Shown here piece after piece: positions 52,220 to 64,000 of a stretch of DNA of 64,000 bases. How positions within the stretch are numbered: position 1 is the stretch's first letter; each line of letters opens with the position of its first letter. The DNA lies in the NCBI GenBank assembly GCA_022482925.1, contig JAKVOG010000012.1, forward strand, positions 1-64,000. The letters are read 5' to 3'. The translations under genes were made by a program, and so were the position numbers. This DNA comes from Selenomonas sp. Lineage in GTDB: Bacteria; Bacillota; Negativicutes; Selenomonadales; Selenomonadaceae. The notes under the pieces were generated by a model. That model had not been told where the DNA came from. It made no database searches and saw only the letters and a program-made list of their open reading frames with translations.

Positions 52220-52915
52220 ATGGACGCGTATTCGGTGCTGCTGGTAGATGATGATAAGAAACTGCTGGCTGTCCTGCAGGAGTGTTTCCAGCAGGAAAAT
52301 TTCACGGTGTATACGGCGGGGGATGGCCGGGCGGCGCTGGAGGCATTCGAACAGTATGCCCCCAGTATCCTGGTGCTGGATCTCATGCTGCCGGAAATCG
52401 ATGGCCGTGAGGTTTGTCGGCGGATCCGGCAGAACAGTGCGGTGCCTATCCTCATGCTTACAGCCAGGGATGATGAGCTGGATCGTTTATTGGGCTTGGA
52501 AATTGGTGCGGATGACTATGTGACGAAGCCATTCAGTACGCGTGAGGTCGTGGCTCGTGTGCGCGCGATTCTGCGCCGTACTTATGGTGAGTTGGCTGAA
52601 GCACCAAAAGCATTGCAGGTCGGTGAACTGAAGCTGGATCGTGAAGCCCATGCGGTCTGGCGGTCTGGGCAGCTTATCGAGCTCACGCCCATTGAGTTCG
52701 GCATCCTCGAAGTATTGATGAAGAATCCGCGTCGAGTATTCAACCGCCTGCAGTTGATGAAAAATACACATGGTTTTGCGTTTGATGGCTATGAGCGGAC
52801 TATGGATGCCCATATCCGGAATCTGCGGCGTAAGCTGGAGCCTGATCCAAAGAATCCACGTTATATCCAGACCGTCTATGGTGTCGGCTATAAGCTGGGA
52901 GGTGGACAGACATGA
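52220..52915 (+). CDS. OmpR/PhoB-family response regulator
   Basis: 231 residues. The receiver domain has acidic DDDKK at residues 10-14, phospho-acceptor Asp54 in LVLDLMLPEIDG, Thr in LMLTARDDE and Lys in YVTKPFSTRE. The C-terminal winged helix has ELTPIEFGILEVLM and the terminal RNLRRKLEPDPKNPRYIQTVYGVGYKL. A GGAGG site is upstream. It overlaps the kinase gene by ATGA, so they are co-translated. It probably regulates the upstream membrane protein gene through the 11-bp repeats. Confidence 0.95.
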   Translation: MDAYSVLLVDDDKKLLAVLQECFQQENFTVYTAGDGRAALEAFEQYAPSILVLDLMLPEIDGREVCRRIRQNSAVPILMLTARDDELDRLLGLEIGADDYVTKPFSTREVVARVRAILRRTYGELAEAPKALQVGELKLDREAHAVWRSGQLIELTPIEFGILEVLMKNPRRVFNRLQLMKNTHGFAFDGYERTMDAHIRNLRRKLEPDPKNPRYIQTVYGVGYKLGGGQT

Positions 52916-54003
52916 GGAGATTGCGCAGCATACGCTATCGGATCATGTGCATGACATTCTTCCTGGTGCTGCTGACCGTCTGCAGCCTGGTATTGCTGGC
53001 GAACCAGCAGATGGAGCAATTGTTTCAGGAGTATCTGCAGGTGCAGCCATCAGTGATGGCTGATATGACGATGGGGGCGCCGGAGCATCTGTTCCTGATG
53101 TCGGTGCACCGGTCGCTGCTCTGGGTTGGGCTGTTCTTTGTTCTGGTGGGCCTGCTGATGAGTTATTTCCTGGCGCGTAACATCACGATACCGCTGCGTC
53201 AGCTCAGCCAGGCGGCGGATCATATTCGTCAGGGCAGGCTGGGGCAGACCGTCACGGTGCATGCACAGGACGAGGTCGGCCAGCTGGCTGCCGTGTTCAA
53301 TCAGATGTCAGTGGAACTGGCCCGCAACGAGAAGCTTCGGCGGGAATTTCTGGCCAATATCGCCCATGAGCTGCGCACGCCGCTGGCAATCCTGCAGGGC
53401 AATCTGGAGAATATGATCGATGGTGCAGCACAGCCGGATATGGCCCGATTGTTTTCGCTGCAGGAGGAGGTAATGCGACTGAATCGGCTGGTCTCAGACC
53501 TGCGCGACCTTTCCTTAGCCGAAGTGCATCAGCTGGAACTGCATCGCCAACCGACGGACATCAATCAGCTGCTCACTGGTGCGGCTGGGATGCTTGAGCC
53601 GTTGCTGGATGAGAAGAATCTGCATTTCGAATATGATCTGCAGGCCGATCTGCCGCTGGCCACCGTGGATCCCGATCGTATTCGGCAGGTATTTTACAAC
53701 ATTTTGGTGAATGCGGTGCGCTATACTTTCCCGGATACTACGATCCGGCTGCACAGCTGGCTGGAAGATGGCGAGGTATGGATCGAGATACAAGATGAGG
53801 GGCCGGGTGTGGCGGAGGACGATCTTCCCCGGCTGTTTGATCATTTCTATCGCACGGATAAATCCCGGAGCCGTCAGAGCGGCGGCTCCGGGATTGGCCT
53901 GTCGCTGGCCCGTCAGTTTATGGAGGTGCACGGTGGTACGATTGCGGCCAGTAACCGCAGCAGTGGCGGGCTGATTGTTCGTATGGGATTTGGCCCGTTA
54001 TGA
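52912..54003 (+). CDS. Sensor histidine kinase
   Basis: 363 residues. Two membrane helices (about 9-30 and 65-88) flank a short periplasmic loop that contains a Met-rich stretch (VMADMTMGAPEHLFLM), which could bind metal. A HAMP domain follows (about 85-137), then HisKA with His152 in LANIAHELRTPLA and HATPase_c with N (YNILVNAVRYTF), DEGPGV and GGSGIGLSLA. It is the BaeS/CpxA type and partner of the regulator upstream. Confidence 0.95.
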   Translation: MRRLRSIRYRIMCMTFFLVLLTVCSLVLLANQQMEQLFQEYLQVQPSVMADMTMGAPEHLFLMSVHRSLLWVGLFFVLVGLLMSYFLARNITIPLRQLSQAADHIRQGRLGQTVTVHAQDEVGQLAAVFNQMSVELARNEKLRREFLANIAHELRTPLAILQGNLENMIDGAAQPDMARLFSLQEEVMRLNRLVSDLRDLSLAEVHQLELHRQPTDINQLLTGAAGMLEPLLDEKNLHFEYDLQADLPLATVDPDRIRQVFYNILVNAVRYTFPDTTIRLHSWLEDGEVWIEIQDEGPGVAEDDLPRLFDHFYRTDKSRSRQSGGSGIGLSLARQFMEVHGGTIAASNRSSGGLIVRMGFGPL

Positions 54004-54325: not shown

Positions 54326-54486
54326 TCGTATTGAGTGGAACCGACACGGGAGAGGATATGCGATATGTCAGGTGGTGGGGCTGATTGTTGGTGGTGGCAA
54401 ATACAAAGCCGGTTCCTGGCTATGAATCGGACGCGAATCTAGTGCATGTCATCCATGAAACTGATAAATTTAAGGAGATTATCAAA

Positions 54487-54963
54487 ATGGGAAAGTATTG
54501 TTCAAAATGTGGAACTGTGTTGGAAGAAGGAAATAAATTTTGTACAAAGTGTGGTGCAGCAGCACCAGTTATCATAGAGCAACCGGTTGCTAATCCTTAT
54601 CAGGATACATTGCCATATATAGATGATCAAGGGGTAGTGGAGATGTTTTTCCGTAGTGATGGCCGCATCAATCGAAAACGATTTTTGATACGATCTGTTG
54701 TAGTTTTTATAAGCTGGCTCGTTTCTTTGTTTGTAATAGAAGCAACTATAGATGTGCTGATTGCCTTAGGGGGAGTATTACTGTTGGTTAGCTTAGTATC
54801 GGGATGGATGTTGAGCATTCGACGTTGTCATGATCTGGGATTATCTGGTTGGGCGTCTCTGTTGTTGCTGATACCCCTGCTGTCTTTTTTTTTCGTACTG
54901 ATTTTATTATGTAAATCGGGGAAAAATGGTCCCAATGGCTATGGAGCGGATCCTTTGAGTTAA
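54487..54963 (+). CDS. Zinc-ribbon DUF805 membrane protein
   Basis: 158 residues. An N-terminal zinc ribbon MGKYCSKCGTVLEEGNKFCTKCG (CxxC pairs at residues 5-8 and 20-23, partly quoted) is followed by a DUF805 module: GRINRKRFLIRSVV, three helices, and SIRRCHDLGLSGWASLLLL, ending GKNGPNGYGADPLS. The role of DUF805 proteins is unknown. An AAGGAGATT site supports 54487. Base composition becomes visibly AT-richer here than in the preceding genes, as in the cluster that follows. Confidence 0.85.
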   Translation: MGKYCSKCGTVLEEGNKFCTKCGAAAPVIIEQPVANPYQDTLPYIDDQGVVEMFFRSDGRINRKRFLIRSVVVFISWLVSLFVIEATIDVLIALGGVLLLVSLVSGWMLSIRRCHDLGLSGWASLLLLIPLLSFFFVLILLCKSGKNGPNGYGADPLS

Positions 54964-55278: not shown

Positions 55279-56568
55279 ATGAGATGGACTTCGTATATAG
55301 GCGTACTTTTCTTGCTTGCGGGGGTGGTGTGTGTATCTGGATGTGGATCTGATGAGTCAGGTGATGCGGCAATTCCTAGTTTTTTTGTGCAGCAGGAAGC
55401 TTCATCAGAAAAAACAGACGTTGATGTGTATTGGGATGCAACGTATTCCATGCAGGGGTATACAACCATACCGGAGGGGAATGTGTATCGCAATCTGCCT
55501 GATGGGCTGGAAGATGTCGGTAATTCGATGGGAAATACCAAATTTTTCCGTTTTGGTGAGCAGGTTCAGCCATTAGAAGGGCGTGAGCATCGCCATTTCA
55601 GTGAGGTCGGTTTTTATGATGAGACAATAACAGCGATTCATACGGTAGTGGATACCGCTGATACCAATCATTTGTCTATTATTGTAACAGATTTATTTGA
55701 AAGTGATGCAGATTGGAGTAATGTTGCCAAGAAGATCAAGGATAAGTATTTTGCTTCACACCTGGCGGTCGCTGTTATTGGTATAAAGAATCCATTTAAT
55801 GGGGATATCTTTGATGTAGGCGTAGATAACGCGAAATTTAATTACAATAGTGGTAACAATCCAGAGCGATACCGTCCGTTTTATATGTTGATTATGGGAC
55901 ATGAAGGTCAAGTCAGAGAGTTCCTGCAGCGTTGGAAGGATAAGAATCCTGGCGGAAATGAGATGCAGTATATGCTGCTGTCGGGGAACCTGATGGAGAA
56001 GGCTCCAGACTTGTCAAATATGGAAATACAGGATAGCAAGAACATATTTGCTGATGAGAAACTCAATGTAACGGATAAACGGGTGAAGGAATTCGGTATT
56101 AATGATGGTGATGAATCTGTCGAATTAAAGACGGCGTTCCATTATCAGCCTTTGCCGAATGGATGCTCAGTAGACATCAGCAAGAGTAAGCCTGTCGTGC
56201 ATGTTTATTCTCTGCAGGATGGCGAATGGAAGGATTCCGGTAAAGATGGGGATGCAGTTTTTAACATTCAGGAAAATGGATCCCAAACGGGCGATTATCA
56301 GTTGAGTTTGAAATTTACACCGGATAAGACGCTTAATAAGGATCAGATCAATCTGGTTTATGCAGCAGTCGAACCAGGTTATAACGGACTGGTATTACCA
56401 GCCTGGGTAAAACAGTGGAATATGGATAATCCGGCAGGGGTAACACCAGAGAACTTTGATGGTTCCAAGACGATTAATTTCATGCATTTGGTAGAGTCAC
56501 TGAAAGATTCAGTGTTGGATGCGGCGAAACCGGCATTGGCTAATATGACCCTATTAATTAAATATTAA
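55279..56568 (+). CDS. Lipoprotein with vWA-like MIDAS motif
   Basis: 429 residues. Signal peptide with lipobox VSGC (Cys22). VDVYWDATYSMQGYT holds Asp53-x-Thr55-x-Ser57, close to the vWA metal-site motif DxSxS, and HLSIIVTDLFESD (about 132-145) looks like the vWA beta-strand with the distal TD. The region from residue 270 is a separate beta-rich domain. It would sit outside the inner membrane and bind partners through a divalent ion. It is the first gene of the cluster, 28 bases before the next start. The vWA call is by motif only. Confidence 0.68.
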   Translation: MRWTSYIGVLFLLAGVVCVSGCGSDESGDAAIPSFFVQQEASSEKTDVDVYWDATYSMQGYTTIPEGNVYRNLPDGLEDVGNSMGNTKFFRFGEQVQPLEGREHRHFSEVGFYDETITAIHTVVDTADTNHLSIIVTDLFESDADWSNVAKKIKDKYFASHLAVAVIGIKNPFNGDIFDVGVDNAKFNYNSGNNPERYRPFYMLIMGHEGQVREFLQRWKDKNPGGNEMQYMLLSGNLMEKAPDLSNMEIQDSKNIFADEKLNVTDKRVKEFGINDGDESVELKTAFHYQPLPNGCSVDISKSKPVVHVYSLQDGEWKDSGKDGDAVFNIQENGSQTGDYQLSLKFTPDKTLNKDQINLVYAAVEPGYNGLVLPAWVKQWNMDNPAGVTPENFDGSKTINFMHLVESLKDSVLDAAKPALANMTLLIKY

Positions 56569-56596
56569 TCATCCAGATGTGGGGAGGAGTAGATTT

Positions 56597-57106
56597 ATGG
56601 ATAGAACGAAAAAAACGGTTGTGGAGATTTTGGGCATTATACTGGCATTTTGTTTGTTGGTAATTATTGTCTATTATGCAGGTTCAGGAATTTCCAAGAC
56701 ATTTTTAAAGGCCGGAGAAGTTACGCATGCGGTATGGACTAAGCATTATATGGGGTTAGTCCGGGTACTGGGAATCGTAACGTGTATTCTTACACTGGCA
56801 TGGTATTTTTTTGCCAGATTCTTTTTCAAAATCACAAATCCGTTCGGCGTGGGAAAAAGAACGATATGGGTGATCATCGGTGTAGTCAATTTGCTGGCTT
56901 GTATAGTAGTTCCTATGCTTTATGTGCATAATGATACGGTAGTCAAACTTGGAGCACCATTATATGTTTTATTCCTGCTGTTATTTGGTGTGATTGGCTA
57001 TTATTCCTGCAGCTTATTGGCAACCCCGGCGAGCTATAAATATACACCAATTGGTGCGGAAAAACTGTGGAGAGGGATGCTGAGGAAAAGGAGAACGAAG
57101 GAATGA
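56597..57106 (+). CDS. Four-helix membrane protein of the FtsZ-like cluster
   Basis: 169 residues from MDRTKKTVVEILGI (GGAGGAG site). Four predicted helices: about 8-30, 53-78, 88-110 and 118-143, with a basic C-terminal tail KLWRGMLRKRRTKE facing the cytoplasm. No known domain recognised. The last codons overlap the FtsZ-like start (ATGA), so the two are translationally coupled. It is a likely membrane anchor for the downstream cytoplasmic proteins. Confidence 0.7.
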   Translation: MDRTKKTVVEILGIILAFCLLVIIVYYAGSGISKTFLKAGEVTHAVWTKHYMGLVRVLGIVTCILTLAWYFFARFFFKITNPFGVGKRTIWVIIGVVNLLACIVVPMLYVHNDTVVKLGAPLYVLFLLLFGVIGYYSCSLLATPASYKYTPIGAEKLWRGMLRKRRTKE

Positions 57107-58605
57107 GCTATTATTTTATTTCAATTGGTGGTTCGGGAGCAAAGGTAATGGAAGCTGTTACGCATTTATGTGCTGCGGGAATGCTTCCAACAGAAGAAAA
57201 ATTATATATCATGTCAATTGATCCGGATGTGGGAAACGGTAATCTGGCACGCAGCAGTGCAGCGCTGCATTGCTATAATAGCTTCCAGTTGTTTAAGACC
57301 GGTGCGGATACACCATTGTTCAAGAATAAGGTGGAACTGGCGAATCCTTTCGTTTGGAATCCGACTGAGCATGATAAATGCCTGGATGATGTAATGTCTT
57401 ATCAGGCGTATAGGGGGACGCCAATTGGTGATCTTTATGAAGTCCTTTATACCAAGAAAGAGCGCAGTACGCTGTTAAATGAAGGCTTCCGTGGTCATCC
57501 ATCCATTGGTGCTGCCGTCATGGCAAAGAAGGTAGCTATGGATAAAGATACGGCAGAACTGAGCAGTGATGATGAACCGTGGAAACGGTTTAAGATGCTG
57601 GTCAATCAGGATGCAAAGTCGGGATCGGTTGCTCGTATATTTTTAGCTGGTTCTGTGTTCGGTGGTACAGGAGCTGCTGGTATGCCGACAATTGCGAAAC
57701 TTTTGCAGCAGACCTTTAAGACGCTTTATGATGAGGGGAAGGTACTGCTTGGTGGTGCACTTATCCTGCCATATTTCTCATTCTCACCAACGCGTACTGA
57801 TTCACTTACTGGACAGGTTTATGCGTCTTCGGAGAACTTTTTGACGAATACGCAGGCTGCGTTGAAATACTATTCGGTGAAGAATAAAGATGAGGATATT
57901 TATCATTCTATGTATTTCATTGGGGATAATATATTAGCTCCAGTACAGAAATTCAGTGTAGGATCCTCCAGCCAGGAAAACGATGCACATGTGGTGGATC
58001 TCTATGGTGCGCTTGCTGCCATAGATTTCTTCCAGACTGATGTGACTAAGTTAAAGAAATGTTCGTATATTACGCATGCGGACGATAATCGTTTCAGCTG
58101 GAGTGATTTCCCTAATCTGGTTTTCAAGGATTTGAATGGGAATGAAGAGTCAATTCCGTTGAAGGATCGATTTGCGCAGTATATCCGGTTTATTTTTGCA
58201 TATGTGCATCTGGTTAAGCCGGTGCTGAAGGATTTGAGTGCAGGTCATCTGAAAGATTATCAGTATCCGTGGTTTATCGATTATCTGGAGGACCTGAATA
58301 TTGATACGCTGGAAGTAAAGAATTTTGAGGAGTATACAGAGTGCTTTGTTCGTTGGTTGCTGCAGTTGGAAGGCAAGGAGCAGCATACGCGCAATATAGA
58401 GCTGGTTCACCCAATGGTTATTGCCGGTCTTAATCCGGCAAGTATTCATGGAGAGCTTTTTGCGAATTGTGTGATTGGCGAGGATAGTAAGATTACGATT
58501 CATGAGTTATGGTACCGGTTGACGGAAAGTGACTGTCGCGATGAGTATGCAGATGGATTTGGCCGATTCCTGCGTGTATTATATGATTGCTGTGAGAAGA
58601 GATAA
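57103..58605 (+). CDS. Tubulin/FtsZ-like GTPase (Tubulin_2/FtsZl-type)
   Basis: 500 residues. The N-terminal GGSGAKVMEAVTHL (residues 9-22) matches the FtsZ/tubulin nucleotide-loop start. LYIMSIDPDVGNGN fits the second loop. IFLAGSVFGGTGAAGMPTIAKLL (about 178-200, partly quoted) is the tubulin signature GGTG-G/A-x-G. ALILPYFSFSP follows, as in FtsZ strand S6. It lacks the FtsZ C-terminal tail and is longer than FtsZ. The family has been reported next to vWA proteins and proposed to remodel membranes. Coupled to the membrane gene before it. Confidence 0.78.
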   Translation: MSYYFISIGGSGAKVMEAVTHLCAAGMLPTEEKLYIMSIDPDVGNGNLARSSAALHCYNSFQLFKTGADTPLFKNKVELANPFVWNPTEHDKCLDDVMSYQAYRGTPIGDLYEVLYTKKERSTLLNEGFRGHPSIGAAVMAKKVAMDKDTAELSSDDEPWKRFKMLVNQDAKSGSVARIFLAGSVFGGTGAAGMPTIAKLLQQTFKTLYDEGKVLLGGALILPYFSFSPTRTDSLTGQVYASSENFLTNTQAALKYYSVKNKDEDIYHSMYFIGDNILAPVQKFSVGSSSQENDAHVVDLYGALAAIDFFQTDVTKLKKCSYITHADDNRFSWSDFPNLVFKDLNGNEESIPLKDRFAQYIRFIFAYVHLVKPVLKDLSAGHLKDYQYPWFIDYLEDLNIDTLEVKNFEEYTECFVRWLLQLEGKEQHTRNIELVHPMVIAGLNPASIHGELFANCVIGEDSKITIHELWYRLTESDCRDEYADGFGRFLRVLYDCCEKR

Positions 58606-58619
58606 GGAGGCAGGAAAGA

Positions 58620-61600
58620 ATGGCAAATCAATATTATCCATTATTACCGAAACTGAAGGAGAATTCAGCAGTTACTCCGGATAAAGTCAGCATCTGGGAA
58701 GATGAGACTTATGATTTTTTGGACAGCCTGATCAAGAGCCTGGCTGTTAGTGGTGATATCACGGATATGGGAAGTATCGATTCTATTCCAGATGTGTGGG
58801 CGCGTCCGCTGTTGTTTGAGATGGCTTTATTTGATAAACAGAATACAGCTGAGCAGCAGTTCGTGCAGGGATTGCATAAGCGAGTTGTTGGCGAATGGCG
58901 CAGCTTGCTGGCAATGCTGGCATTGAATGATATCAAGCATTTGAACTTACGGGCACAGGAAGTTCGTATTGACGGTGGCAATAATGCCAGCAGCATTGAA
59001 CGTATTCTGAAAAATCTGGCACCGGGCAAAGCCATTAGCGACGATACTGGCTGGGATGTAGTTTATGTTATTTTTTATCGCGAGGTGCCGATCGCGATGA
59101 CTTCACCAACGACGTTGGTTTCAGCTGCTGCGGATTATATGAATGCATTCGCGGGGGATTTACCTCAACCATGGAGTGATAATGGCAGTTATCTGGTCGA
59201 CCCGATTCCATATTTGACAGACGAAGATTTGAGCTGTTTGTATGCCTGGTTGCAGAAACTGCGAGAGAATTTGAATGCGTATGTACGGAATAAGGATGAT
59301 AATGAGGCCTATCTTATGACGCAGGAACGGATTGAGGATTACTGCCGTGCGATAGAGCAGCAGTATCGTGGCCGGCAATTACAGGGCAGCTATAAATTCA
59401 ATGAGGGCTGGCTGAAGATAAATGCGGGCTTGTTCCGTTCACTCGATCTTTCTATTCAGGCGAAGGAAGCAACCGCTGAAGATTCGGCTGTACGCATTAA
59501 GCCGTCGCGGGAGTCTACAACGGGTAAGGATATCCTGCTGATTTCACCGGATATGCTGAGCGAAGTTGCTGCTGCCTGGAATATTCCTATGACGCAATTG
59601 GTAGTATGGCAGGGAATCACGGCTAATGATATTCGTGAAGACAGCTTGTATAACGGAGCGGGACAGATTGGCTCCGTTATACTGAAGAATGCGGAATATC
59701 GCCGCCCGGAAGAATTCTTTACCGAGTCGATGGCCGTTATGGAGCCGCGGAATGCTTTGAAGGGAACGATGAAGGTCCGGGGGGAGGAACTGCTGGCCTC
59801 AGAGAATCTCAGCATCGTTTTACCGATACGGCAGGAACTGCTGGAGTATTTTACGACAGAAGATATTGCGGATCGGGTAAGTATCGAGAATACACCAGAA
59901 GAGATCCTGGTTCATTTTGCGTTCCCACTATCTGGGACTGGTATGAATTATCGTGATTACGATTATGTCAAACATTATTCCAAGAAAGAGCTGGTCTATC
60001 TACAGAAGAACGTGCCGGTTATTGAGATCTGGCCAAATATCCGGCGGGATGGCTGGAAGAAGTACTATCTGTACTATGAGAATTCGGAAGCACAGAACAA
60101 GGAAAGCTTTGAAGCCGGTAAGGATTTCTTTTATGTGACACCATGGACTTATGGCGTAGAAAATTCTGCTGATGTGCCAGAAAATGGACTGGCAAATCAG
60201 TATACTGCCCGGTTGCAGGATTTTCCGGAAGTCCTGCGCTGTACGGTCAACAGCTCGGTTCAGGGAAATGTGCGCAGTATGACTGTGGATATTGGCATGC
60301 TGTTGCTTGATCGTCCCAAACAGGCAGTAGTCAATGCATTGACGAAATGGCAAGTAGGTATTGATTTTGGTACATCCAGTACGATGCTCTATTATAAAGA
60401 CAATACACAGGAACCAAAACCACTGGCTTTTGAACCGAATTTGTTCCAGGTTACAGAGAGTGGTGCAGCACGCAACAATACCTGGTACACCTTTATTCCG
60501 GCGGCATCAATTCAGGAAGACGGATCGTTCTTAAGTATTTTCCATCTTTTGAATACGAAGAAGGTCCATGATGTGATCCGGCCATTGCAGGACGGACATA
60601 TCTTTGCATTGAGCAAGAAGCTTATGGATGCGAATCGTACGGATCCAGGCACGATTGATGCAAATCTCAAGTGGCAGTCGGATGATACAGGCCGGTATAA
60701 GGCTACGGCTTATCTTGAGCAGATCTGCATGCAGAGTGCTGTAGAAGCAGCACTGGCAGGTGCTGCAGAAGTGAAGTGGAATTTCTCTTATCCAGCAGCA
60801 TTCTCCGATGAGGAGCGGGAGTCATTCCGGAAGATGTGCCTGAAGGCAATCATGAATGCAGATGAGGATACTTGCTTCAAGGGAACGCCGAATTTCCTGG
60901 ATACACAACTGGAAAGTGTAGCTACGGCATTGCATTTCAATAAGCTGAATAATAGTGATACGAATTTCGGTGATGGCGCGATTTGTCTGGATATCGGTGC
61001 CGGGACGACAGACATTTCAGTGATCAGTGGACGTCCGGGACGGATTGTCTATCATTCGTCTATCCGCTTTGCCGGGCGGTATTTGTTTGGCCCGGTATAT
61101 CGTTATAAATATGACGTGAAGGACTTGAAGTACGATCGCGAGCTTACTGGAATCGGCTTTGCTGAATATGATGCCGATATGCGTGAGAATAGCGAGAGCT
61201 ATCTTGAGAAACTGGCCAATGATACAGGCAGCGACAAGACGAAAGAGATGTTGCAGAAATCACAGTTCGGCATGGCGGGAATCTTCTATTATGTCGGAAA
61301 GATACTGGCTAAGCTTCATGAGAAGGGTATCTATGGGGAAGACCATGTTCCAGACATCTATGTGGGCGGAAATGGTTCTCGTGCTTTTTATTGGCTTACT
61401 GGTGGCGGAATATTTGACAGCAACAGTGTAAGGATGCGTGTGCTGAAAAAAATGCTGGAAGAAGCTTCTGGATTAGATAATAGCTATGCGTTTGATATTT
61501 ATCTCAGTGATAAACCAAAAATTGAAGTGGCAAGCGGTATGATTGAAGAAAGACCGCGCCATCGTTTGTTTGACGAAGAAGAGATGCAGCAGAATCTCTT

Positions 61601-61952
61601 CGGAGATACAGAGGATGAATATGTCTTTAGCTCGGTCCTTTGTGGTGAAGACTACAAGCTTAATGGGGAAATACATGACAAGGACTCCTTCATATCAGCC
61701 AGAGATATTTCTGCCGGTATTGAGATTGAGGAACTACTGGAGTTCCAGGGTTTTCTTGAGAAATTCAACAAAAATCGTAAGAGTGATTGGTTGAATGGTA
61801 TTCTCCTTACGGATGACCAGTTGCGAGAGGTTCGGAAACGTGTTTATAACTACTATATTGCAGAGAAGGGGAAAGATATCAAGGAGATTCATGTTGAGCC
61901 GGTATTCATATTGGCCTTGAAGAAATTAATGGAGATGTTGATCAATGACTGA
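58620..61952 (+). CDS. Large protein with C-terminal Hsp70/actin-like ATPase domain
   Basis: 1,110 residues. Residues 1-575 have no recognised domain. Residues about 577-1000 form an actin/Hsp70-type ATPase: phosphate-1 WQVGIDFGTSSTMLYY (577-592), phosphate-2 CLDIGAGTTDISVISG (789-804) and adenosine motif DIYVGGNGSRAFYWLTGGG (912-930). No Hsp70 substrate-binding domain follows. GGAGGCAGG site; start 58620. Cytoplasmic by sequence. It may be a filament or switch partner of the tubulin-like protein. Eight-base overlap with the next gene. Confidence 0.8.
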   Translation: MANQYYPLLPKLKENSAVTPDKVSIWEDETYDFLDSLIKSLAVSGDITDMGSIDSIPDVWARPLLFEMALFDKQNTAEQQFVQGLHKRVVGEWRSLLAMLALNDIKHLNLRAQEVRIDGGNNASSIERILKNLAPGKAISDDTGWDVVYVIFYREVPIAMTSPTTLVSAAADYMNAFAGDLPQPWSDNGSYLVDPIPYLTDEDLSCLYAWLQKLRENLNAYVRNKDDNEAYLMTQERIEDYCRAIEQQYRGRQLQGSYKFNEGWLKINAGLFRSLDLSIQAKEATAEDSAVRIKPSRESTTGKDILLISPDMLSEVAAAWNIPMTQLVVWQGITANDIREDSLYNGAGQIGSVILKNAEYRRPEEFFTESMAVMEPRNALKGTMKVRGEELLASENLSIVLPIRQELLEYFTTEDIADRVSIENTPEEILVHFAFPLSGTGMNYRDYDYVKHYSKKELVYLQKNVPVIEIWPNIRRDGWKKYYLYYENSEAQNKESFEAGKDFFYVTPWTYGVENSADVPENGLANQYTARLQDFPEVLRCTVNSSVQGNVRSMTVDIGMLLLDRPKQAVVNALTKWQVGIDFGTSSTMLYYKDNTQEPKPLAFEPNLFQVTESGAARNNTWYTFIPAASIQEDGSFLSIFHLLNTKKVHDVIRPLQDGHIFALSKKLMDANRTDPGTIDANLKWQSDDTGRYKATAYLEQICMQSAVEAALAGAAEVKWNFSYPAAFSDEERESFRKMCLKAIMNADEDTCFKGTPNFLDTQLESVATALHFNKLNNSDTNFGDGAICLDIGAGTTDISVISGRPGRIVYHSSIRFAGRYLFGPVYRYKYDVKDLKYDRELTGIGFAEYDADMRENSESYLEKLANDTGSDKTKEMLQKSQFGMAGIFYYVGKILAKLHEKGIYGEDHVPDIYVGGNGSRAFYWLTGGGIFDSNSVRMRVLKKMLEEASGLDNSYAFDIYLSDKPKIEVASGMIEERPRHRLFDEEEMQQNLFGDTEDEYVFSSVLCGEDYKLNGEIHDKDSFISARDISAGIEIEELLEFQGFLEKFNKNRKSDWLNGILLTDDQLREVRKRVYNYYIAEKGKDIKEIHVEPVFILALKKLMEMLIND

Positions 61953-62898
61953 AAATAGATGGAGGCGTCAACTGCTGGCAATCAGTACATTGAGTGCTGG
62001 TTGCTTGTGGCAGGGAATGGATTTAGCGGTGGCAGCAGGTAATCAACTGGATGAGCCGGATTTTGCACCAGCCCCACATGGCGGTCCGGACTTGCCACCG
62101 GATATGACCGGGATTTTTGGTGGATTGATGACTACGGATCTTGTTCTATGTGCGGTCGCAGGAGTTTTCTTGTTTTTGTGCCTTATTCTGTTTGTATTGT
62201 ATTTACGGCAAAGTAGTTCCATCAAGCGGTTGCATGATGAACAACGGAAAATGCGTAGGGAACTGGATGATTTGCATAATAAACTGACTCAGATGCATAA
62301 CGCGTCCAGACAGGACCAGTATATGGCTGATAAAAGCTATGATCCGGATGATAGGGTGGCGATTATTGCTGGAGGACATAGGGTTCAGCAGGCACGTCAA
62401 TATGAACAGGCTTCGTTGGCTTCAGACACGACTAATCGTCCACCAATGCCATCGGCTGTTGGCAGACCGGCTCCAGCTGCTGTTGTTGAGGATTTTCTGG
62501 CTGAGTATAATCGGTTCATGAATCAGTCACTGACGGGGCTGGCGATGAAACAGGCTAGAGAAGCTTTGATTGCTAAGTACCGGGTAAGAACGTTTTCTTG
62601 CCAGAATGCCGCTGAGCGTGCGTACCAGCCAACGATGGCGCCGGATTATCAGAGTGTAGAGACCGGCGGAGATTATTGGGCTGTTCAGATCAGTGAACGA
62701 GAGGGCTGTTATGTCGTTCCCAATCCAAAGGTGACTTATGAATCACAGATTCATGGTGCTGGTGGCATGAAAGAGGCATTTGCTTCTAATTATCATGGCG
62801 GTTCTTTTGGGCATATAAAAGTCATTATTCCGGCTCGTTTTACTTGTGTCAATAATCATTGGACTGTACTTGCACCAGGAAAAATCGAAGTGTATTAA
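61945..62898 (+). CDS. Membrane coiled-coil protein of the FtsZ-like cluster
   Basis: 317 residues. The N-terminus RWRRQLLAISTLSAGC resembles a signal peptide with a lipobox-like end (Cys20). A Pro-rich segment (PAPHGGPDLPPDM) and a membrane helix (64-87) follow, then a short coiled coil (about 90-120, KRLHDEQRKMRRELDDLHNK) and a disordered Pro/Ala linker. The C-terminal domain (about 180-317) has FLAEYNRFMNQSLTGLAMKQ and ends in a beta-rich region. It overlaps the preceding gene by eight bases. Not recognised; topology suggests it links envelope and cytoplasm. Confidence 0.7.
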   Translation: MTENRWRRQLLAISTLSAGCLWQGMDLAVAAGNQLDEPDFAPAPHGGPDLPPDMTGIFGGLMTTDLVLCAVAGVFLFLCLILFVLYLRQSSSIKRLHDEQRKMRRELDDLHNKLTQMHNASRQDQYMADKSYDPDDRVAIIAGGHRVQQARQYEQASLASDTTNRPPMPSAVGRPAPAAVVEDFLAEYNRFMNQSLTGLAMKQAREALIAKYRVRTFSCQNAAERAYQPTMAPDYQSVETGGDYWAVQISEREGCYVVPNPKVTYESQIHGAGGMKEAFASNYHGGSFGHIKVIIPARFTCVNNHWTVLAPGKIEVY

Positions 62899-62922
62899 GC
62901 ATTCAGAGAGAGGATTTATTTT

Positions 62923-64000
62923 ATGGAGGAGAATAAGGTGCGTTCAGTTCGGGATATATTCCGCCAAATTCTGGATGAAGATAGGAATTTGTTGAACAGT
63001 CGGGATGAATTGAGTAAGAAACTGGAGCAGGAAGTACCGGCCGCATTGACGCGGGATATGAAACCAATCCAGACGGCGCTTCAGCAGAATATAGGAGAGC
63101 TGTTTCTTGCGACTCCGTCAGACGATGCTGAAAAACAAGCCGCGGTTTGTCAACAGGCAGAAGAACTGCTACAGCAGGATGGTATGTTGCAAAATCGGGC
63201 GGCTGATGTTGTTAGTACATTTGCTTATGCAATGGGCTGGAATGATGAGCCTGAGGTAGTACGCACAGAAGAAGATCCGGGTGATCCGCTTCAGGATGAG
63301 GTGCCGAAAGAAGCTGAGGTACAGTTGGTACCGGCTTCATGGACTTGTGCCTGTGGCACAGAGAATACAGGCCGTTTTTGTACCTCCTGTGGAGCACCTC
63401 AAGCCGGTATAGAGGATACGCCAGATCCTGGTCAGACAGGCTGGACTTGTACCTGCGGACAGCAGAATACGGGCCGGTTTTGTATTTCTTGCGGAAGTGT
63501 GCAGCCTGGCGTGGCGGATACAGGGCAGAGCAGCGCGATGACTACGTTAGCTATGCAACCGATTGATCCGGTTAATGCATATCCCAATTCCTCAATCGGG
63601 CTCCAGCCGCCCATGTATCAGGCGCCACCGAAAGACAATAAAGCAAAGATCCTGTTGGTTGCGGCTATTGTTGCTTTGTCGGCTGTATTAGTCTTTTTTG
63701 TCGTGCGTGGTATTGGCAGCTCTGCAACAGGGGATTCATCCTATAGTTCAGTGGGGAAAACTGCAGGTGATAAGAAAACACCAACGGTTGATTCGGATCT
63801 TTCATTGGGGGGGGTATCTATTGGTTATAGTGTAGATAAACTTCATGAAGTGCTGGGAAATGAAAAAGAGCAGCGTAAGGGGGATTATGGAACTACCGTA
63901 TACGTTTATACTGGCATCAAAGTGGCAGTGAAAGATGGCCTGATTGTAGGACTGACTTCCGATGGTACTGATGTCAAGACTAAACGGGATCTACATGAAG
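62923..64000 (+). CDS. Double zinc-ribbon membrane protein, partial at window end
   Basis: An open frame of at least 359 codons from ATG 62923 runs off the window. Residues 1-110 are helical (KKLEQEVPAALTRDMKP). Two zinc ribbons follow: WTCACGTENTGRFCTSCG and WTCTCGQQNTGRFCISCG (about 140-195). A membrane helix KILLVAAIVALSAVLVFFVV is at about 241-262. The extracytoplasmic end has LSLGGVSIGYSVDKLHEVLG, a pattern similar to IGATQAEAEKVFG in the secreted protein at 23566. The zinc ribbons are predicted to be cytoplasmic. It lies 24 bases after the previous gene, in the same operon. Confidence 0.8.
   Translation, partial: MEENKVRSVRDIFRQILDEDRNLLNSRDELSKKLEQEVPAALTRDMKPIQTALQQNIGELFLATPSDDAEKQAAVCQQAEELLQQDGMLQNRAADVVSTFAYAMGWNDEPEVVRTEEDPGDPLQDEVPKEAEVQLVPASWTCACGTENTGRFCTSCGAPQAGIEDTPDPGQTGWTCTCGQQNTGRFCISCGSVQPGVADTGQSSAMTTLAMQPIDPVNAYPNSSIGLQPPMYQAPPKDNKAKILLVAAIVALSAVLVFFVVRGIGSSATGDSSYSSVGKTAGDKKTPTVDSDLSLGGVSIGYSVDKLHEVLGNEKEQRKGDYGTTVYVYTGIKVAVKDGLIVGLTSDGTDVKTKRDLHE

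Follow-up and report, generated by a model that had tools for sequence, protein, structure and literature searches.

A tubulin-superfamily GTPase and an actin/Hsp70-superfamily ATPase form a near-obligate pair in an operon of Selenomonas that may be one copy of a mobile, membrane-tethered machine

The stretch of DNA analysed here, referred to below as the window, comprises bases 1-64000 of a 72,970-base contig (JAKVOG010000012.1) from a 2.94 Mb assembly of Selenomonas sp. (GCA_022482925.1). Towards its end begins an operon of six + strand genes (55279-64566) encoding, in order, a vWA-like lipoprotein (called here Lipo), a membrane protein with four transmembrane (TM) segments (TM4), a tubulin-superfamily GTPase (Tub), an actin/Hsp70-superfamily ATPase (Act), a membrane coiled-coil protein (CC) and a zinc-ribbon membrane protein (ZnR). 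We slightly favour the reading that Tub and Act, as a near-obligate pair, are the basis of a machine that is tethered to the membrane and spreads horizontally, and that this operon is a copy of it; the Tub-Act-envelope set would probably form a single tethered machine that acts on the envelope or senses it. The word cytoskeletal, where applied to the two proteins, is a statement on their folds and not on their behaviour. An earlier note on the same DNA had suggested a dedicated machine using two cytoskeletal folds. The superfamilies, the co-occurrence, the envelope partners and the signs of acquisition uphold this suggestion; confident folds for the two proteins were not obtained.

Co-occurrence of Tub and Act was surveyed in 189 genomes of the host order, many of the surveyed genomes being incomplete metagenome-assembled genomes. 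Tub was found in 54 and Act in 54, both together in 53. The earlier note had tied its proposal to conserved co-occurrence, and 53 of the 55 genomes with either gene do carry both. Restricting the survey to completeness of at least 90% and contamination of at most 5% leaves 99 genomes, in which an identical set of 12 carries Tub and Act. Of 30 genera, 9 have the two genes, and these are the same for both. Lipo was detected in 50 genomes, all among these 55 and none outside. The hypergeometric figure for the pair (9e-45) ignores shared ancestry and linkage. It should be noted that 34 of the 53 genomes have the two genes on separate contigs; a contig end accounts for the separation in genome G016 and possibly in G097, and Act was not found in the flanks read around 21 Tub genes of such genomes. 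The sole neighbourhood of this dispersed kind that was scanned (L050) has Tub and TM4 beside LytR-CpsA-Psr and YrbL-type genes. Shared ancestry does inflate the statistics, but the unlinked cases are not explained by linkage; these cases, together with pairs found across phyla, are the real argument for the pairing of Tub and Act.

Regarding the spread of the operon, relatives of the locus carry the recorded names Selenomonadaceae, Selenomonadales, Anaerovibrio and Quinella. In G126, of the window's family, the order is Tub, Act, a 367-aa protein, a ZorA-like and a ZorB-like protein, and in G649, of another Negativicutes family, it is Lipo, TM4 (a weak match, 0.004), Tub, Act, a 270-aa protein, a ZorA-like, a ZorB-like and a zinc-ribbon protein. 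The A proteins of both copies match MotA_ExbB and the B proteins OmpA, all above cut-off. PADLOC ZorB models were matched at 4.8e-16 and 5.6e-18 and ZorA models more weakly, at 4.8e-7 and 6.3e-6 (G126 and G649 copies); 'ZorB' is used here as a resemblance, since the best NCBIfam model for the B protein, itself below cut-off, is that of another OmpA-type lipoprotein. When the Tub of G649 was compared with 72,556 plasmid records, six matches were obtained, to five cyanobacterial plasmids and a Prevotella record; the Act matches in plasmid records were to those five cyanobacterial plasmids, and one Tub-bearing plasmid is typed as mobilizable. Three of these six loci were read (Gloeothece, one Picosynechococcus and Prevotella), and in all three the gene that follows Tub is an Act homologue (profile E 1.9e-163, 8.4e-127 and 4.1e-21, respectively). 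Matches to the Lipo and TM4 profiles precede Tub in Gloeothece and Picosynechococcus, the Gloeothece Lipo being on the opposite strand. Tub-Act pairs occur together in three bacterial phyla. Trees of Tub and Act over 11 taxa are correlated (Mantel r 0.945; 0/5000 permutations), and each joins G126 to G649 with a support of 1.000, against taxonomy, a grouping expected if the unit moves whole. No relatives were found in the viral contigs and phage records searched. Genes annotated as F-type ATP synthase are present within a few kb of the Picosynechococcus plasmid copy (L201:1-3408).

The base composition of the locus is in agreement with transfer. The stretch from Lipo to CC has a GC content of 44.7% compared to 52.3% for bases 1-54003, as stated earlier for a cluster described as AT-richer than its flanks, and, among stretches of that size across the contig, the one with the lowest GC (44.0%) begins near 54500, so that it overlaps the operon. 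The possible acquisition raised in the earlier note is supported by this low GC, by patchy presence, by plasmid carriage and by the gene trees of one copy that run against taxonomy.

The length of Act pointed to a fusion with another operon protein. The 15 linked copies (G016 being counted among them) have 1,101-1,151 residues, and 28 of 29 full-length copies on another contig than Tub have an open frame of at least 1,233 residues (1,098 in the remaining one, from G068). At its C-terminal end, unlinked Act has an extra part with homology to the CC C-terminal domain (BLASTP 8e-23 and 3e-22). This domain was found in 28 of 971 open reading frames (ORFs) read around the loci: 20 stand as genes of their own at loci where Act is linked (18 of them distinct, since two locus pairs overlap), and the remaining 8, one of them a short-contig fragment, are fused to Act in 8 of the 8 Tub-less loci read. 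Such a fusion in one lineage is a classical sign of contact between Act and the CC domain. In the window, CC (61945..62898, + strand) has one TM segment by hydropathy (residues 66-84), a stretch that we read as a coiled coil, and the C-terminal domain itself (62479..62895, + strand). An unlinked Act-CC fusion is also present in a Quinella sp. 2Q5 record (L080). Quinella are described in PMC9585023 as rumen bacteria with unusually large oval cells, and a link between the fusion and this cell size would be hypothetical.

Act (58620..61952, + strand) has 1,110 aa: a unique N-terminal region of about 570 aa and then an ATPase core at approximately residues 575-985 (60342..61574, + strand), placed by the motifs of 12 diverse homologues. 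The phosphate-1, phosphate-2 and adenosine motifs (60354-60383, 60984-61013 and 61362-61382, + strand) read IDFGTSST, DIGAGTTD and GGNGSR; all three actin/Hsp70 nucleotide motifs, announced earlier for this protein, were thus read directly. We take the motifs to be of the phosphate-1, connect-1, phosphate-2, adenosine and connect-2 types. Both phosphate motifs are found in 12 of the 12 homologues, with the motifs in ASKHA order, and a GGN-type adenosine motif in 11, Prevotella having SGTGSK. The N-terminal region bears an IPxxWARP-type motif (IPSPFAQ in Prevotella), and the whole protein, these first 570 residues included, gave no Pfam match above cut-off. Profile comparison with hhalign matched Act to MreB at 97.7% (E 1.6e-12), and at 98.4% (E 1e-14) in a second comparison; a PDB sequence search with the Act profile returned MreB only, over about 50-105 positions. 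About 125 aa follow the core, with no Hsp70 Pfam match, and the Hsp70 domain order is absent because the core comes after the 570-aa region and only this short part remains. Foldseek, run with a weak Act model, listed MreB and ParM first, Hsp70 after these, and also exopolyphosphatase; with query TM values of 0.10-0.16 in the best 50 of 115 chains at E<=1e-3, little weight is given to this result. By its motifs and profiles, Act is a member of the actin/Hsp70 superfamily. Because SrfB is an actin-like protein with a comparable length, a relation to it was weighed and dropped, as no SrfB model matched and the literature searched showed no link. A phylum-wide search for Act gave matches in 165 of 398 genomes at E<=1e-3. 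Two of these genomes belong to the window's family and matched at E 0; the others among the matches listed have 17-25 bits over about 40-125 residues around phosphate-2 and were set aside as probable MreB-type proteins. A 339-aa protein of a Ruminococcaceae (L082) was judged to be of this type as well and was removed from the fusion count.

Tub (57103..58605, + strand) is a 500-aa Tubulin_2/FtsZl1-like GTPase according to Pfam and profile comparison. At E<=0.1, Pfam Tubulin_2 (PF13809) was matched by 20 of 20 aligned members (best 2e-10) and Pfam Tubulin by 17 of 20 (best 3.6e-6), and the homologue of G649 exceeds the 27-bit curated cut-off of Tubulin_2 with 45.2 bits over residues 5-231. The T1 loop GG[ST]G is present, and a T4-like loop, GSVFGGTGAAG (57649..57681, + strand), takes the form FGGTGA[AS]G throughout a diverse set of 12 homologues; all 12 also have, about 100 residues further on, a QxN[DE]xH motif that may be the T7 loop. 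In hhalign comparisons, Tub matched FtsZl1 at 85.2% (E 6e-6, residues 4-224), with both glycine loops aligned, and at 95.6% (E 1.2e-8) with a wider sequence set, unrelated pairs in the first comparison giving at most 0.8%. FtsZl1 itself matches FtsZ at 80.6%. Tub is accordingly placed in the tubulin superfamily near FtsZl1 and not near FtsZ, because its profile matches the former but not the latter. At 500 aa it lacks the long coiled coil and helical C-terminal domain of most FtsZl1 proteins, and a PDB sequence search with the Tub profile gave no meaningful match. The earlier note had recognised a tubulin-fold GTPase from GGTGAAG and had proposed structure prediction and profile comparison for both proteins: the motif and the superfamily placements stood, a confident fold did not follow. 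Because the AlphaFold models are poor, the fold assignments rest on motifs and profiles, which support Act strongly and Tub, by way of FtsZl1, well.

Elsewhere in the phylum, a Pfam Tubulin_2 search of 249 genomes gave matches in 10; no Act match was seen beside the three FtsZl1-type and two other Tubulin_2 loci read. G419 (L130:1056-4334) encodes two adjoining Tubulin_2-like proteins of about 500-550 aa near a ClpB-type AAA gene, a compact FtsZl1-like arrangement; the profile match of Tub to these two is 2.7% (E 0.017). A TubZ-like protein is encoded in G234 (L131:8113-9450; TubZ-like_C 1.8e-17).

The six genes are tightly spaced, with intergenic distances of 28 (from the ATG start of TM4), -4, 14, -8 and 24 bases, so the ORF coordinates agree with the gaps of at most 28 bases or overlaps given previously. 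Lipo (55279..56568, + strand) is a predicted 429-aa lipoprotein with a vWA-like DxTxS...T...D pattern resembling a metal-ion-dependent adhesion site (MIDAS); its lipobox (..SGC) and DATYS motif were read directly. The lipobox GC, D53, T55, S57, T118 and D138 are invariant in 14 of 14 aligned homologues. In the homologue from Gloeothece the sequence is DGSGS, and the first aspartate is missing from the Prevotella candidate; the Picosynechococcus homologue was aligned from a start that excludes the MIDAS-like region. Neither Lipo nor the four homologues scanned matched Pfam vWA, and the 'vWA' label consequently rests on the MIDAS positions; of the MIDAS-bearing vWA-like lipoprotein claimed before, the lipobox and the conserved positions held and the domain match did not. 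TM4 (56597..57106, + strand) has four hydrophobic segments by hydropathy, as the four-helix protein of the earlier reading should. Its mechanical start is a GTG at 56579; the ATG at 56597, preceded by GGGGAGGAG, was used instead. A TM4 homologue also stands ahead of Tub in other genera, in the G649 copy and in the case of two plasmids from cyanobacteria.

ZnR (62923..64000 in the window, + strand) crosses the window end and is complete in the contig, to 64566. It comprises an N-terminal helical domain, two zinc ribbons (CxCGxxNxGxFCxxCG), one TM segment by hydropathy, a CAP_assoc_N-type segment (2.3e-7; 31.1 bits, above the 29.3 cut-off) and a tail that we read as NTF2-like. With one TM segment each in CC and ZnR and two visible ribbons, both proteins fit their first description as a membrane coiled-coil and a double zinc-ribbon membrane protein. 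The N-terminal domain of ZnR (called here ND; 62923..63258, + strand) also occurs on DUF805, TPR and CC-type proteins elsewhere: it was found in 20 of the 971 ORFs (16 distinct genes), and every one of these loci has Tub and Act. The domains to which ND is joined are zinc ribbons, DUF805, TPR or the CC domain. Downstream of Tub-Act-CC in G122 (L135:741-8440), four adjoining genes share it; two of the four encode TPR repeats, in one case along with DUF805, and a third has DUF805. A look beyond 64000, as had been advised, showed that the operon goes on in the contig with a GH3 family (NagZ-type) gene, a trypsin-like lipoprotein gene and a zinc-ribbon DUF805 gene. This last gene (67071-67742) has a relative on the other side of the operon, a zinc-ribbon DUF805 gene at 54385..54963 (+ strand; DUF805 1.3e-18) that is possibly associated with it. 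A second NagZ gene lies outside the operon in G000 and G153, and NagZ copy number is unspecific because the operon-free G143 and G146 also have two. G162, likewise operon-free, has an independent module with a NagZ-type gene between two ZnR-like zinc-ribbon genes (L197:8315-11451), and the ZnR-NagZ end of the operon may derive from a module of this sort. The same genome carries three large genes that, by their protein starts, appear to resemble BREX PglZ, PglX and BrxC. This set (L194:1-10424), about 3.5 kb from a histidine kinase gene 86% identical to window 52912-54003, might mark an insertion hotspot, perhaps one for defence systems.

Judged by sequence and by the parts of the literature cited here, the nearest described kinds of system are the FtsZl1/vWA operons and the GAP1-N2 GTPase systems. 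The former place a Tubulin_2-type GTPase beside a MIDAS-bearing vWA protein and membrane proteins, with OmpA-family genes in some, and have been proposed to remodel membranes (Makarova and Koonin 2010, PMC2875224). The operon resembles them in its Tubulin_2-like GTPase, its neighbour with MIDAS-like positions and its membrane proteins. In most FtsZl1 proteins an extended coiled coil is combined with a helical C-terminal domain, and the founding member reaches 1,051 aa, whereas Tub has 500 aa and comes with Act; no actin/Hsp70 partner is named in the portion of PMC2875224 drawn on here, and the Act family may be among the unnamed associated families of that survey. In the GAP1-N2 systems (Kaur et al. 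2020, PMC7159879), tubulin and vWA belong to one theme and HSP70 to another, and the two are termed non-overlapping. Their membrane-proximal, mobile character and their zinc-ribbon, TPR and NTF2 parts are shared; by contrast, tubulin and HSP70-type folds form a near-obligate pair here. No DO-GTPase or GAP1 was recognised among the operon proteins scanned with Pfam, whole genomes not having been searched for them. For Zorya, PMC11890865 reports a part in function for peptidoglycan binding, for the cytoplasmic tail and for ion flow; the MotA/ExbB- and MotB/OmpA-type genes of two operon copies are the shared element. The window operon has no PADLOC match to ZorA or ZorB, and no ZorC, ZorD or ZorE was matched among the proteins scanned from the window, G126 and G649 copies. 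Act shares nucleotide motifs with MreB, ParM and Hsp70 (ASKHA) and differs in its 1,110 aa, unique 570-aa N-terminal region and short tail. Tub shares GTP-binding loops of the tubulin superfamily, its T4 loop being a variant, with TubZ and FtsZ and differs in its C-terminal half and partners; Tubulin_2 proteins are treated as divergent and of irregular architecture in the cited part of PMC9871819. No account of an obligate tubulin/actin-fold operon was found in the literature searched, preprints and supplementary files lying outside that search.

We infer that Act and Tub would bind or co-assemble on the inner face of the membrane, where the CC C-terminal domain, as a separate CC protein or fused to Act, would tether Act. 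TM4 and the zinc-ribbon adaptors may couple the two NTPases to the vWA-like lipoprotein exported across the membrane. Act is followed, in a second form of the operon, by a ZorA/ZorB-like pair of MotAB type, presumably proton-driven and peptidoglycan-binding. Metal-dependent binding in the periplasm, or proton-driven force, might then switch NTP-dependent assembly inside, the order of signalling being a guess, and the assembly would remodel or protect the envelope. Exported cell-wall enzymes encoded next to some copies (a NagZ-type GH3 or, in the case of a dispersed copy, LytR-CpsA-Psr) would fit an action at the peptidoglycan.

Several results weigh against this reading. Relatives are rare beyond the window's family: Act was found in 5 of 200 class genomes, four of the window's family plus G649, and Tub in 1 of 59 genomes of the G649 family and in 2 of 398 phylum genomes, both of the window's family. 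The ZorAB-like genes stand beside two copies only (G126 and G649). The two genes before Tub in Prevotella, lipoprotein-like and membrane, match neither the Lipo nor the TM4 profile, no gene after Act in the cyanobacterial and Prevotella loci matches CC or ZnR, and the Tub and Act trees disagree on Prevotella, L040 and L069. Within the order, Tub occurs without Act in G107 and Act without Tub in G102, each genome being about 60% complete; Lipo was not found in 5 of the 55 genomes with Tub or Act, among which the contig of G122 stops near TM4 and that of G126 starts inside Tub. Act is split over two frames in G080 and G084 (L067:5645-9005 and L068:6134-9398), which reads as decay or assembly error. 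Finally, the window Tub scores 22.2 bits, below the Tubulin_2 cut-off; its T4 loop deviates from GGGTG[ST]G; direct profile comparison with FtsZ gave 0.1-0.3%, no match; and the AlphaFold models of Tub (two sequences) and Act (nine sequences) are of low confidence (pLDDT 36.3 and 39.1), Foldseek with the Tub model finding nothing at E<=1e-3 (top row a microtubule, E 0.35, given no weight).

The main rival to an envelope machine is a system of conflict with phages or plasmids, in which the vWA lipoprotein or a ZorAB-like motor senses envelope perturbation and NTP-dependent assembly of Tub and Act arrests or kills the infected cell. Such a system, which we regard as possible and yet rather unlikely, would suit the sporadic, mobile spread (a single one of the 59 genomes of the G649 family; plasmids, one of them typed mobilizable), the resemblance of the ZorAB-like genes to Zorya and a published proposal for tubulin and HSP70 neighbourhoods (PMC7159879, in the part cited). 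However, the six window operon proteins have no PADLOC match at E<=1, the upstream DUF805 protein matching weakly (0.011 and 0.13); the scan of operon proteins revealed no effector of the nuclease, NADase or pore-forming kind; and the dispersed form, present across many species of genus g11, looks domesticated. The absence from phage records and viral contigs is neutral in this respect. Less likely still is a chaperone, with Act as an Hsp70-like remodeller and Tub as its client or co-factor in assembly or quality control of an envelope complex, in the absence of any filament. The ASKHA motifs of Act, the zinc ribbons and the TPR proteins of G122 would fit, but the nearest Act profile is MreB, the Hsp70 domain order is lacking as described above, and neither DnaJ nor GrpE is present among the proteins scanned. 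Plasmid partition systems employ tubulin and actin folds, and some copies are plasmid-borne; partitioning of DNA by a TubZ- or ParM-like filament is nevertheless very improbable, the conserved partners being membrane and lipoprotein genes, some with cell-wall enzymes, and it was rejected because no DNA-binding partner or adaptor was recognised in the core. A coincidental operon of neighbours with no common function is already contradicted by the unlinked co-occurrence, by the Act-CC fusion and by a gene order that repeats across families and phyla; its recurrence in other genera, another family and cyanobacterial plasmids excludes a chance arrangement.

Taken together, these results lead us back to the mobile, membrane-tethered machine built on Tub and Act. 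A wider version is offered only tentatively: a GTPase of tubulin fold and an ATPase of actin fold would be obligate parts of a single membrane-anchored assembly, a widespread mobile machine of which one form would be coupled to a proton-driven, peptidoglycan-anchored motor of ZorAB/MotAB type. It would then constitute a force- or damage-gated two-cytoskeleton system of the envelope. Bacterial actin- and tubulin-fold proteins are usually studied separately. If the reading is true, it would provide a new way to couple two nucleotide cycles at the envelope, through a near-obligate pair that transfers between bacteria as a unit, persists when its loci disperse and is connected with membrane adaptors, a vWA-like lipoprotein and in some cases a proton-driven motor. 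The long-predicted FtsZl1/vWA proteins would gain a small and concrete gene set, with plasmid-borne versions in cultivated cyanobacteria.

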